From Acidobacteriaceae bacterium (GTDB lineage Bacteria > Acidobacteriota > Terriglobia > Terriglobales > Acidobacteriaceae): a stretch of 64,000 nt of DNA. Shown here piece after piece: positions 27,157 through 34,086 of the stretch. A program made the translations under genes and the position numbers. Under the pieces are notes generated by a model, which was given only the letters and a program-made list of their open reading frames with translations, was not told where the DNA came from and searched no databases. The DNA is taken from contig JASHPJ010000118.1 of NCBI GenBank assembly GCA_030038195.1, positions 1 through 64,000 of the forward strand, read 5' to 3'. How positions within the stretch are numbered: position 1 is the first letter of the stretch; the number at the start of each line of letters is the position of its first letter.

Positions 27157-30100
27157 TTACACCTTGGCTGAAGTCAGCGCGCCCAGGTCGGCGGCAATCT
27201 TCTCCGTCGAGAAGGCCTCGATCAGATCGCCTTCCTTGATATCGCCAAAGTTGGCGATGCCGATGCCGCACTCCATGCCGTTGGTCACTTCGCGCGCGTC
27301 GTCCTTGAACCGCTTGAGCGAGCCGATCTTGCCCTTGAAGATCTGCTCGCCGTCGCGCAGCACCTTCACCTCGGCGTCGCGCCGGATCACGCCGTCCTGC
27401 ACGCGGCAGCCGGCGATGGTGCCCACCTTCGGAATCTTGAAGATGTTCAGCACCTCCGCGCGGCCCAGGTAGCTCTCTTTGAACATCGGCTCCAGCAGAC
27501 CCATCATGGCCAGGCGAATCTCGTCCTGCAGCTCGTAGATGATCGAGTGCAGGCGAATCTCCACGTTCTCCTGTTGCGCCAGCTCCGCGGCTTTGCGCTC
27601 CGGCCGCACGTTGAAGCCGATAATGATGGTGTTGGAAGCCGTCGCCAGCAGCACATCGCTCTCGGTGATCGAGCCTACGCCCGAGTGGATTACCTTGATG
27701 CGCACCTTCTCGGTGGACATCTTCACCAGCGAGTCGGCCAGTACTTCTACCGAGCCGGTCACGTCGCCCTTGATGATCAGCGGCAGGTCTTTCACGCCGG
27801 CCTGGCGAATCTGCTCCGCCAGCCCCTCGAGCGAAACGCGCGAGCTCTTGGCAAGCTGCGCCTCGCGCTCCTTCATCTTGCGGTACTGCGCAATGCTCTT
27901 GGCCTTGTCGCGATCGGCAACCACCAGGAAGGTATCGCCCGAGTCAGGCATCGATTCGAGACCGAGCACCTCCACCGGCGTCGATGGTCCGGCTTCTTCA
28001 AGCGCGCGCCCGCGGTCGTCGAACATGGCGCGCACCTTGCCGAAGGTGTTGCCCACAATGTAGCTGTCGTTCAGCTTGAGCGTTCCATCCTGCACCAGCA
28101 CCGTGGCCACGGCGCCGCGTCCACGATCGAGCTTGGCTTCCAGCACCGAGCCAACCGCCTTGCGTCCCGGCGTGGCCTTGGGTGCCTTGATGTCGGAGAC
28201 AAGGCAGATCATCTCCAGCAGCAGATCGAGGTTGAGATGCTTCTTGGCTGAAACCTCGACAAACACCGTCGAGCCTTCGCCGCCGCCGGCCCACTCCTCG
28301 GGAATCAGTCCGCGATCAGCAAGCTGCTTCTTCACGCGGTCTGGATTCGCCTCCGGCTTGTCGATCTTGTTCACCGCCACGATGATCGGCACTTCGGCAG
28401 CCTTGGCATGGTCGATAGCTTCGAGCGTCTGCGGCATCACGCCGTCGTCGGCCGCCACCACGATGACCACGATGTCCGTCACCTTGGCGCCGCGCGCGCG
28501 CATTCTGGTGAACGCCTCGTGACCCGGCGTATCGAGGAACACGATCTCGCGCCCCGATGCCGGCGAGCCTTCCTTGGCAAACTTCACCTTGTAGGCGCCG
28601 ATGTGCTGCGTAATGCCGCCCGCTTCGCCGGCCGCCACGTCGGTCTCGCGAATCGCGTCCAGCAGCGAGGTCTTGCCGTGATCCACGTGGCCCATCACAG
28701 TGACAACGGGCGCGCGCGGAACCTCCAGCTCGTCGGAGTTTTCGGCCTCGAGCACTTCTTCGAGCGCCTGGTTCTCCAGCTCCTCTTCGTAGCTGATCAC
28801 GGTTGCTGCCGCGCCGAACTTGGCAGCTACGTCCTTCACCATCTCCGCGTCGAGCGACTGGTTCACGGTGACGAAGACGCCGCTCATCAGCAGGGTCGCA
28901 ATCAGGTCCTTGGCGCGCACTTCCAGTTTCTCGGCCAGATCTTTCACGCTGATGCCTTCTGTGACCGTGATCTCGCGCGTGATGGGAAGAGGCCCGGTGC
29001 CGTACTGTGGTCCCGCATAGCGTGGCGGCGGCACAAAGCCCTTCATCGGGCCTTCCTTGGTCTTGGGATACTGCTGCTGCCCGCGCCCGCGTCCGCGCGA
29101 CGCGGTGCGCTGCGCGCGCGGAGCCTCGCCCGGAGGTGGAATCGCACCCGGTCCGCCAGGACGTGGTCCGCCAAACCCGCCGCCAGGGCGCGGTCCGCCA
29201 AATCCGGGACGCGGTCCAAACCCAGGCCGTCCGCCCGGTGCGCCACCCGGAGCAAAGCTCCCCGGCGCTATGCGTGTTGGATGCTTGGGCCGCGGACCGC
29301 CCTGGAACTGGCTCGGCGCTCCGGGACCACTGGGACGTGGTCCGCTGAATCCTCCGGGACCGCCGGCAGGCCGGCGATCGAAGATTGGTTTGCCGCGCTG
29401 GATTCCGGTGCCGGACGCAGCCGCTGGAGCCGTGGGCGGCACAACGGTTGCCTTGTACACAGGCCGTGGGCCGGTCTGCGGCATCACCATGCGGCGAGCC
29501 GGAGTCGCAGGCGCCGCCGCAGGTTGAGGAGCCGGAGTCGCAGCCAGCGCAGGCTCTGCCGCGGAGCTGACTGCCGGAGTCGCTGCTTCTACCGCAGGCT
29601 GTACCACCGGCGCAGCCGCAGCGGAAGCTGCTTCCACGCTGGCCGGCGCAACCGCCAGCGGGGCCGGAGCTTCTGCCACAGGCAGCACAGCCGGAGCCGG
29701 CGCAACCGCAGGACGCTCCACAACCGGAGCCGCGGGAGCCGGAGGCTTGACCGCGACGACCGGCTTTTCCGCCGTGCGCGGCTGTTCCTCGCGCGCGGCC
29801 GGCTTGGCTACCGTGCCCGCAGGCGATGAGACCACAACGACCGGCCGCGGGGGAGCTGTCGCGACGACCGGAGCCTTGGCAATCACCGGTCCAGCCGGCG
29901 GACGCGAAGCGATGGCGGGAGCGGCCGGCTTGGCCGGCGGCGCAGCCACAATGGGCGGCGCAGACCGCGGCTGCGGAACAATCCGGCGCGGCTCAGGACG
30001 CGCGGCCGGGGCCGGCGCAGTGGCTGCGGGAGCAGCCGGCTTGACTGGCGGCGTGGCCACGGCGGGCTTGGCCGGCGCGTGAGCGTGCCGCGCCTCCTCT

Positions 30101-30396
30101 TCCGCCTCTTTCTTCTTGGCCAGGATCGCCTTCATCACATCGCCAGGCTTGGAGATGTGCGACAGGTCGATCTTCGGGGTAATCGTCTGCTGCGTGCGCG
30201 AGGATGCGCTGCTTGCCTGCGCGGCTGGCCGGTCTGTGCGCGCAAAATGCGCGCGCACCTTGTCTGCTTCCTCGGCTTCGAGAGAGCTCGAGTGCGTCTT
30301 GCCGGCGTCCAGGCCAAGCTCCGCCAGCACGTCAAGAATCTGACGGCTCTTGACTTCCATCTCGCGTGCGAGATCGTTGATTCGAACCTTGCTCAT
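27157..30396 (-). CDS. infB: Translation initiation factor IF-2
   Basis: A 1079-residue GTPase that brings initiator tRNA to the ribosome. An IF2-N domain is at residues 1-55 ([20 protein letters not shown]) and a second near 470-545. Between them are about 400 residues of Pro/Ala/Gly/Arg-rich low complexity. The G domain shows [17 protein letters not shown] and NKIDKPEA from about residue 565, then the C1 and C2 domains. E. coli IF-2 has 890 residues. It is the last gene of rimP-nusA-infB; the 118-base spacer to nusA holds no YlxR or L7Ae-type gene, which is unusual compared with Gram-positive bacteria. Confidence 0.97.
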
Positions 30397-30514: not shown

Positions 30515-32077
<1,563 letters not shown>

Positions 32078-32215: not shown

Positions 32216-32815
32216 TCAAATCTCCGGCACCAGTTGCGCCTTTTCGATATTTCCCAAGGCGATCTCCACCTGGCTTACGCCGGTCTTCCGGCTCTTGCTG
32301 TTCTGCCGCACCGCGGCAAGGTCGATTGCGATGGTGTCTCCGTCAGCCGCCGTCAGCCGCCCCTGCCAGTGCCGGTTGTTGCGGATCGGCTCAAAGGTCT
32401 GTACCTTGACCAGGCATCCTTTGAACCGCTCGAAATCCTCCCGCCGGCTCAGCTTGCGGTCCAGCCCCGGAGAACTGGCCTCCAGCGTGTACCCCTCGCC
32501 GGGAACCAGGTCCTCCACGTCCAGCAGCACCCCAAAATCGCGGCTGAAAGCTGTACAATCCTCGTGGGTCACGCCCGACAACTGCTCCACGCTCAACCCG
32601 CCCTCGACCAGCCGTTCCGGCAGCCTCTCGAGACCCTTGGCTCTGCTGGCCAGTTCCTCCTTCAGCCGGGCGCGACCCTCGGCATTTTTCTCGAGGAAAA
32701 CCCGCAGCGTCCTGTCCCTGGCCGGGCCGGTGAACTCCACGTCCACCACATCCAGCCCATGCGAAGCGGCCACCCGCTCCGCCGCCGATCGGATTACGTC
32801 CAGCCTCACTGCCAT
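32216..32815 (-). CDS. rimP: Ribosome maturation factor RimP
   Basis: A 199-residue 30S assembly factor. GLDVVDVEFTGPARDRTLRV, then GYTLEASSPGLDRKLSRREDFERF is the family core. It is somewhat longer than E. coli RimP because of an insertion (about residues 45-75). It opens the rimP-nusA-infB operon. Confidence 0.95.
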   Translation of the reverse strand: MAVRLDVIRSAAERVAASHGLDVVDVEFTGPARDRTLRVFLEKNAEGRARLKEELASRAKGLERLPERLVEGGLSVEQLSGVTHEDCTAFSRDFGVLLDVEDLVPGEGYTLEASSPGLDRKLSRREDFERFKGCLVKVQTFEPIRNNRHWQGRLTAADGDTIAIDLAAVRQNSKSRKTGVSQVEIALGNIEKAQLVPEI

Positions 32816-32894
32816 CCATTCCTGCGCGGCGTCCCCGCAACTCGTTTCAGGACCCGTTTCAGGCTCGATTGCCAGCCTTTACCGGGCCCAAAAA

Positions 32895-32930
32895 ATTGCC
32901 GCAAATAAAAAGTGGGCTATGAGCCCACTC
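32895..32930 (-). terminator. Terminator-like hairpin in the rimP leader
   Basis: AGTGGGCT (32911-32918), loop ATG, AGCCCACT (32922-32929) is a perfect 8-bp stem. On the minus strand it is followed by TTTTTATTT, so it looks like an intrinsic terminator about 95 bases before rimP. No minus-strand gene lies upstream that it could end, so it may be an attenuator. Confidence 0.65.
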
Positions 32931-33111
32931 ATCTCTCCGCCAGCCGGTGCGCACGCGGTGAAAGTCCGGCGGACAAACTCGTCTGCATCTTTAGAATACT
33001 GCGAAATGCAAGGAAATTCAACCGGCTGGCAGTGTGCTGCCAACAAAAGCAAGAAGATTCTCAAGCAGCAGAGCTTGCACGAATCCACGCCGCCGGTCTA
33101 ACAGAGTAGAT

Positions 33112-34086
33112 ATGCCTCTGAGCGCGGATCGGCCGGTTTACGTTTCGCCCACCGACATGGAATCCCTCCTCGCCTCCATCGCCGCAACCGTCTCCGATCC
33201 CAACGCCGGCCTCTTCGGTCCCGGCTCCATCACTTGGCGCGTCAACCGCGAGTCCGCCGTTTTTCTGGGCGCGGGCCGCGCAGCTCTGCTTCAACTCGCG
33301 CATCCCTGGGTGATGGCCGCGCTCGCTGACCACTCCAGCGTCCTCCACCAGCCCATTGCCCGCTTTCATAACACCTTCCGCATCGTCTTTACCATGGTCT
33401 TCGGATCGCTCGGCCAGGCCACGGCCGCCGCCCGTTTTTTGCACGAGCTGCACACGCGCATCCGCGGCGATCTCAGGGAACCTGCCGGCCGCTGGCCGCG
33501 CGGTACGCGTTACCAAGCCAACGAGATCGGCGCGCTGCGCTGGGTCTACGCCACGCTGGTCGAGAGCGCCGTCATGGGCTACGAGTGCGCCGTCGGCCCG
33601 CTCACCGGCACCGAGTGCGAGCAGTACTACGCAGAAAGCCGCGCCTTCGCCGCGCTCTTCGGCATTCCTGCTTCAGCGCTGCCCGCAGACTGGGCTGCCT
33701 TCGCCGAATACAACCGCCAGATGCACGCCTCCAACGAACTGGCCGTGACCGGCGCCGCGCGCGACTACGCAGCCAGACTCATGGCCGGCGCAGGCTCCTG
33801 GCTGCGCCCGCCCGCATGGTTTCGCGCGCTCACCGCTGCCTGGCTGCCCGCACCGCTCCGCACCGGATTTTTCCCGGAGTTCGGCATGGCAGACCAGCAT
33901 GCAGCCGAGGTTGCCACACGCCGTCTGCCGCATATCTATCGTCACATTCCAGCGTCGTTCCGTTCCGTTGGCCCCTGGCAGGAAGCCTGCGCCCGGCTCA
34001 TCCACCGCCAGCCAGGCGCGCTGACGCGCATCAACAACCGCTTCTGGATCGGCGAGCCATTTCTGCCCTTCGCAGAGGACAAGTAG
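33112..34086 (+). CDS. DUF2236 (MpaB-like) protein
   Basis: A 324-residue protein from the ATG at 33112 (MPLSADRPVYVSPTDMESLL). It matches the DUF2236 pattern: GPGSITWRVNRESAVFLGAG, LLQLAHPWVMAALADHS, and conserved His residues typical of this haem-binding oxygenase-like fold (latex-clearing protein and mycophenolate MpaB families). The substrate is unknown. It is divergent from rimP and followed 80 bases later by the peptidase gene. Confidence 0.85.
   Translation: MPLSADRPVYVSPTDMESLLASIAATVSDPNAGLFGPGSITWRVNRESAVFLGAGRAALLQLAHPWVMAALADHSSVLHQPIARFHNTFRIVFTMVFGSLGQATAAARFLHELHTRIRGDLREPAGRWPRGTRYQANEIGALRWVYATLVESAVMGYECAVGPLTGTECEQYYAESRAFAALFGIPASALPADWAAFAEYNRQMHASNELAVTGAARDYAARLMAGAGSWLRPPAWFRALTAAWLPAPLRTGFFPEFGMADQHAAEVATRRLPHIYRHIPASFRSVGPWQEACARLIHRQPGALTRINNRFWIGEPFLPFAEDK

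Follow-up and report, generated by a model that had tools for sequence, protein, structure and literature searches.

The rimP-nusA-infB operon of an Acidobacteriaceae bacterium is preceded by a conserved, predicted transcription terminator that, by the sequence features tested, is of the rimP-leader attenuator kind. The fraction of RNA polymerases reading through it is probably set by NusA, the product of the second gene of the same operon, with an additional hairpin domain (P1/P2) that would tune the terminator or sense something in this genus and its relatives. The central concept, in which NusA acts back on its own operon by way of a terminator in the leader, has been published before; the domain ahead of the terminator seems to be new. 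The element lies in a stretch of 64,000 nucleotides, hereafter the window, and its parts are listed in Table 1.

The terminator hairpin and a promoter-like sequence ahead of it

On the minus strand of the window, the genes follow each other in the order rimP, nusA, infB, and the hairpin sits between rimP and a divergent mpaB/Lcp-type gene. The initial annotation had described a hairpin with a T-run on the minus strand about 95 bases ahead of rimP, with no upstream minus-strand gene that it could terminate. Both points are borne out: 95 nt separate the end of the hairpin (32911) from the rimP ATG (32815), and the neighbour is a plus-strand gene. The RimP protein encoded in the window shows an apparent insertion of about 30 residues within its N-terminal domain, and distant relatives align separately to about residues 5-45 and 76-167.

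Table 1. Coordinates of the leader element and the neighbouring genes in the window
Feature	Position	Strand	Evidence
-35-like hexamer TTGAAT	33016-33021	minus	block mean column identity 0.88, 30 same-genus loci
-10-like hexamer TATTCT, 17-nt spacer	32993-32998	minus	block identity 0.86, 30 same-genus loci
Conserved 5' leader end GCAGACGnrTTTG	32974-32986	minus	alignments
Upstream hairpin domain	32936-32973	minus	consensus fold, MFE fold, arm-swap test
P1, UCCGCC paired with GGCGGA, enclosing P2	32973-32968 with 32941-32936	minus	
P2, small hairpin	32958-32944	minus	weaker support than P1
Linker GAGATG, P1 to terminator stem	32930-32935	minus	24/30 same-genus loci, 18/26 family rows
Terminator stem-loop AGTGGGC TCATA GCCCACT	32911-32929	minus	sequence, terminator scan, fold; 55/55 RimP loci; compensatory changes
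U-tract UUUUUAUUU, interrupted	32903-32911	minus	TTTTTATTTG in 30/30 same-genus loci
rimP	32216-32815	minus	Pfam PF02576 and PF17384
nusA	30515-32077	minus	Pfam NusA_N, S1, KH_5; 34% identity to E. coli NusA
infB	27157-30396	minus	Pfam IF-2 domains
mpaB/Lcp-type oxygenase gene, divergent	33112-34086 (start taken as 33112)	plus	Pfam PF09995; outside the leader element

The arms of the stem (AGTGGGC/GCCCACT) occupy 32929-32923 and 32917-32911 and are followed by TTTTTATTT; the whole minus-strand string from 32929 to 32902 reads AGTGGGC TCATA GCCCACT TTTTATTTG and is preceded by a G. When only the window sequence is considered, the hairpin can be drawn as a CAT loop closed by eight Watson-Crick pairs and one additional G-U pair, and the terminator scan of the window listed it with nine pairs, five of them G-C. 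Its earlier description as a "perfect 8-bp GC stem" is fair, though the G-C pairs number only five. The stem kept in evolution comprises 7 bp, with a variable loop of 4-5 nt.

The rimP hairpin is no chance terminator. With up to three mismatches allowed, the pattern was found in the window only at this site and as its own complement (0.14 expected), and the exact core is present in one copy in the 4.17-Mb genome. A folding energy of -13.5 kcal/mol was calculated for the bare hairpin (1 of 200 shuffles was as good), and of -33.7 kcal/mol for the 84-nt leader (0 of 200 shuffles, z -3.2). Judged from the sequence, the 3' end of a terminated leader RNA is expected at about 32902-32905.

The conserved leader is larger than the hairpin noted at the outset and spans about 32993-32902. 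A promoter-like TTGAAT-17-TATTCT extends from 33021 to 32993, and the conserved leader follows immediately, opening with GCAGACG. Mean column identity among the aligned same-genus loci was 0.29-0.45 far upstream and 0.86-0.88 in the -35/-10 blocks; it was 0.35-0.89 in the part of the leader that precedes the linker, 0.89-0.97 over the linker and the terminator, and beyond these 0.65 and then 0.42. Since the mpaB/Lcp-type neighbour was found in only 4 of the 30 same-genus stretches fetched (the window's own included; some stretches are short), general synteny is probably not what keeps this block conserved. The best-scoring promoter-like pair ended 61-65 nt ahead of the hairpin in 25 of the 30 same-genus loci, a different pair being chosen in the other five rows, including that of the window. 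As the score threshold was reached by 23% of shuffles, the case for a promoter rests on positional conservation. Transcription is predicted to start near 32986, and the polymerase would probably reach the hairpin after about 57 nt. In a strict scan, which also misses TTGAAT/TATTCT, no promoter-like site was found on the minus strand between the hairpin and rimP. A transcription start in that interval had been considered incompatible with attenuation in the initial annotation; the conserved promoter-like sequence upstream argues against such a start, although one may still exist there.

Conservation of the hairpin in relatives and across Acidobacteriota

Of 60 related genomes, 55 yielded a RimP match, the exceptions being G007, G014, G028, G048 and G051, one of which is 100% complete. 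In all 55 loci the hairpin with its T-run occurred once per fetched stretch, upstream of rimP and on the same strand. The string AGTGGGC-loop-GCCCACTTTTTATTTG was present once before rimP in each of the 30 same-genus loci, and GTGGGC-loop-GCCCACTTTTTnnTT once each on the rimP strand in the remaining 25, which comprise 3 further loci of the genus and 22 from other families. Conservation in relatives, proposed initially as a check, was thus observed, and the reading of the element as a terminator leader ahead of rimP-nusA-infB is supported. All 33 same-genus loci seen share the position at which the distal U-tract is interrupted; the interrupting base is A in 31 of them and G and C in one each (L053 and L054, respectively).

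For the phylum, 297 Acidobacteriota genomes with a completeness of at least 90% were sampled. The exact core was found in 93 of them and a reversed control pattern in 2; RimP_N was detected in 245. We compared coordinates for 75 of the 101 exact-core matches. Three had no listed RimP place, which left 72 matches from 64 of the 93 genomes, 8 of these matches being opposite-strand images of the same hairpins. Among the matches listed, the distance from the hairpin to the RimP domain downstream of it was 30-308 nt (median 69), with both on the same strand, in 64 of 64 genomes compared. In eight genomes (G120, G133, G158, G166, G174, G198, G206 and G222), T-runs flank the hairpin on both strands, and to judge by this arrangement it could stop transcription from both directions.

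Variants were inspected in a sample of the 204 genomes without the exact core. Among 30 RimP loci fetched from the phylum, those lacking the exact string usually carry a variant stem, such as AGCGGGC/GCCCGCT, AGTGAGG/CCTCACT or AGCGGCC/GGCCGCT. A terminator-like hairpin scoring at least 22 was found in 29 of these 30 loci; the opposite strand gave one in only 1 of 30, and none of 150 shuffles had one. Covariation was assessed in 24 of the 30 hairpins, leaving out the near-duplicates L091, L094, L104 and L113 and the divergent L100 and L102. Position 2 of the stem is T-A in 20, T-G in 2 and C-G in 2, position 4 is G-C in 23 and A-T in 1, and position 5 is G-C in 23 and C-G in 1; position 6 is variable, two hairpins having no pair there. 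The changes in the stem preserve pairing, and most of the Acidobacteriota loci examined have either the hairpin of the window or a compensated variant of it ahead of rimP. In three loci of other Acidobacteriota (L089, L090 and L111), a 16S rRNA gene (Rfam RF00177) lies divergent to rimP about 225-240 bases upstream of the hairpin; in some lineages of the phylum, an rRNA operon adjoins rimP-nusA-infB.

Named genomes were surveyed through 55 hand-picked loci out of 80, those left out having little upstream sequence or being further Hyphomicrobiales; no upstream sequence was available for L147, one of the 55. A GGG...CCC hairpin with a T-run precedes nusA in 25 of 26 acidobacterial-type loci, two of which are MAG records labelled Actinomycetes and Bifidobacterium. 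A similar hairpin was seen in 6 of 28 non-acidobacterial NusA loci (three from the Bdellovibrio group, one each from Nitrospinaceae, Nitrospirae and a Proteobacteria MAG) and in none of 13 from Alphaproteobacteria, as judged with a loose pattern that carries no chance control, indicating that the leader circuit is not universal. In E. coli, TGGGCTTTAGGCCCTTTTTTT with GGG lies 37 nt before rimP.

An additional hairpin domain in the genus and related genera

In the genus and related genera, the sequence GCAGACGnrTTTGTCCGCC...CCGTGnnCGCACCGG...GGCGGAGAGATG lies ahead of the terminator, with P1 ending about 6 nt before the terminator stem. A model built from 30 leaders matched 72 of 80 genomes of the genus and 39 of the 42 of good quality, with one copy per genome except for two genomes with two; in the genome studied here it is single-copy. 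Within the phylum sample, 30 of 297 genomes matched, namely 26 of the 36 of the family and 4 with weak matches elsewhere, and one of the 26 carries two extra weak matches. RimP starts downstream of the hairpin in all 23 strongly matching further loci (L118, L121-L142), and also in five more contigs, including those of Edaphobacter lichenicola and Granulicella mallensis, whose leaders scored 48-85 bits. Candidatus Sulfotelmatobacter and four others gave 18-21 bits, and 1 of the 11 searched had no match. After the U-tract, many of the loci L122-L140 have a GCUCU complementary to an AGAG before the terminator stem (by eye), which is absent in the window.

Relatives carry P1 as UUCCGUC/GACGGAA and in other matched versions. 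When the arms were swapped among 14 distinct 3' arms, native combinations paired better (-11.4 kcal/mol) than swapped ones (-9.5 kcal/mol), and 3 of 20000 permutations were as good; this test and the shuffles for P2 ignore relatedness. The consensus fold of the same-genus leaders alone contained no pair with a two-sided change. For P2, 89% of the cells are paired, the window's own sequence lacks one of the pairs, and covariation is modest. The family alignment comprised 26 of 58 matches and left out most same-genus rows, the near-identical L123-L125, L141 with its long insertion, and the weak L143 and L145.

The P1/P2 domain was absent from the loci examined in other families of the class. In these 22 loci, the hairpin and the best -10-like hexamer are 10-60 nt apart, and the terminator may therefore act when the polymerase has barely left the promoter. 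In three of these loci (L049, L050 and L052), the hexamer ends only 10-13 nt before the hairpin, and the predicted terminated RNA would be only about 30-35 nt long, unusually near promoter escape. A TGGCG box was seen 25 nt ahead of the hairpin in 7 of 20 distinct sequences from L031-L052 (0.7 in shuffles, relatedness uncorrected); the 3' arm of P1 in the window also contains TGGCG.

An Rfam search of the window returned no known RNA, and a permissive search gave five sub-threshold matches, none of them rimP. Other readings of the leader were considered and rejected. A leader peptide was suggested by an ATG before AGTGGG in 24 of the 30 same-genus loci, but six lack it; moreover, loop length varies by genus (5 vs 4 nt) and loop changes alter codons (by eye). 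As for mimicry of rRNA, the linker/terminator motif had no match in an E. coli rRNA operon, and the P2 motif had four with three mismatches (1.85 expected). A classical antiterminator could be drawn by eye between GUCCGC and GUGGGC, with six pairs, two of them G-U, but P1 and the terminator form side by side in the predicted fold.

Comparison with known leaders and the likely mechanism

The passages of Naville & Gautheret (2010; PMC2965389) on this element describe the rimP-leader as a terminator before rimP-nusA-infB, with a highly conserved GGGc...gCCC stem and a U-stretch and with no visible antiterminator, and name NusA as the best candidate regulator; almost no predicted attenuator in phyla such as Acidobacteria is said there to have an associated function. 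The initial annotation had referred to such proposals for other bacteria, and the element indeed matches the one described in these passages (PMC2965389). It agrees with it in its site 5' of the operon, in the stem and the U-stretch directly after it, in the absence of a visible antiterminator (P1 and the terminator are compatible in predicted folds) and in NusA as the favoured regulator. The distance given there is 4-130 nt; in the window, 86 nt separate the end of the motif from the ATG. The element differs from the one described in that source in that the distance ranges from 48 to 166 nt in the 30 same-genus loci, four of which exceed 130, in that the constant string, AGTGGGC...GCCCACTTTTT, is longer, and in that the window's family has P1/P2 upstream. 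In a search of open-access literature, judged by titles and term counts, the 2010 survey was the only paper found on this leader in Acidobacteriota. The gammaproteobacterial form, Rfam RF01770 (rimP), shares the operon and the terminator in the leader; it stayed below its gathering score in the window and in two further loci (L118 and L148), while the E. coli control scored 102 bits.

The primary report of the B. subtilis NusA leader attenuator is said to be that of Mondal et al. 2016. A 2025 review (PMC12288461), in the part that concerns this system, states that B. subtilis NusA autoregulates via NusA-stimulated termination in its own 5' leader. The leader studied here likewise holds a predicted intrinsic terminator 5' of a NusA-encoding operon; NusA dependence was reported for the B. 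subtilis leader and is proposed for the present one. Two further papers report, respectively, higher transcript levels of the E. coli operon in mutants in which NusA termination is reduced (PMC6511841) and a tendency towards distal U-tract interruptions in NusA- and NusG-dependent terminators of B. subtilis (PMC8060035).

The course of events that we infer is as follows. RNA polymerase would start at a sigma-70-type promoter near 32986 and, some 57 nt later, produce the AGUGGGC/GCCCACU hairpin and then the interrupted U-tract. Part of the polymerases would stop at about 32903, releasing an RNA of about 84 nt, and the rest would continue into rimP-nusA-infB. NusA would most likely set the stopping fraction by stimulating intrinsic termination, so that high NusA would turn its own operon down and low NusA would turn it up. 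The P1/P2 domain lies, with its linker, directly against the terminator and probably either tunes it or acts as a sensor of some kind. NusA feedback by attenuation is the most likely reading because of the match to the rimP-leader, the literature on B. subtilis and E. coli, the U-tract interruptions and the position of nusA as second gene in the same operon. Against it stands the fair stability of the hairpin (-13.5 kcal/mol), which need not depend on NusA.

It is unlikely that the attenuator answers to a regulator other than NusA, that is, to a protein or small molecule bound by P1/P2 (RimP, NusG or a ribosomal protein, for example). P1/P2 is conserved in sequence beyond the needs of a terminator, P1 covaries, and the TTATTT of the U-tract fits TTNTTT, given as the motif of B. 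subtilis NusG pausing in the relevant passage of PMC8060035. However, P1/P2 is confined to related genera and matches no Rfam family, whereas the terminator is far more widespread and is kept where P1/P2 is missing, which suggests that the ancestral signal acts on the terminator itself. Still less probable is a constitutive, unregulated partial terminator that merely lowers expression of the operon, or a 5' hairpin protecting the mRNA. The predicted folds of the leader, in which P1 and the terminator coexist and no antiterminator was found, would suit this explanation, but a stem that is almost constant in sequence, while its loop and surroundings vary freely, suggests that it is recognized rather than kept for stability alone.

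The predicted product of about 84 nt, with two hairpins and a U tail, also resembles a small RNA, and the terminator could then be the 3' end of an independent gene, with rimP transcribed from its own promoter downstream of the hairpin. We consider this highly improbable: the element precedes rimP in every locus checked, though the divergent neighbour is there in only 4 of 30, conservation falls after TTTG, and the interval between the hairpin and rimP yielded no promoter-like site on the minus strand.

Within the preferred reading, NusA feedback on the terminator, a more specific version is possible, though we would not call it likely. In the genus and related genera, the rimP-leader would be a two-part regulatory RNA: P1/P2 and the linker, most often GAGAUG, would make up a sequence-specific platform, with the S1-KH region of NusA or RimP as its possible reader, and this platform would control how efficiently an ancestral NusA-responsive terminator works. 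Where the terminator lies a few to some tens of nt past the predicted start, as in other families of the class, it may gauge how NusA is loaded as soon as the polymerase has left the promoter.

These findings extend a proposed, little-tested circuit, by which a near-universal transcription factor would regulate its own synthesis, to a phylum where the signature of the circuit is unusually constant. The natural series found here, from the bare terminator to the terminator with an extra domain, could help to dissect how NusA is sensed.
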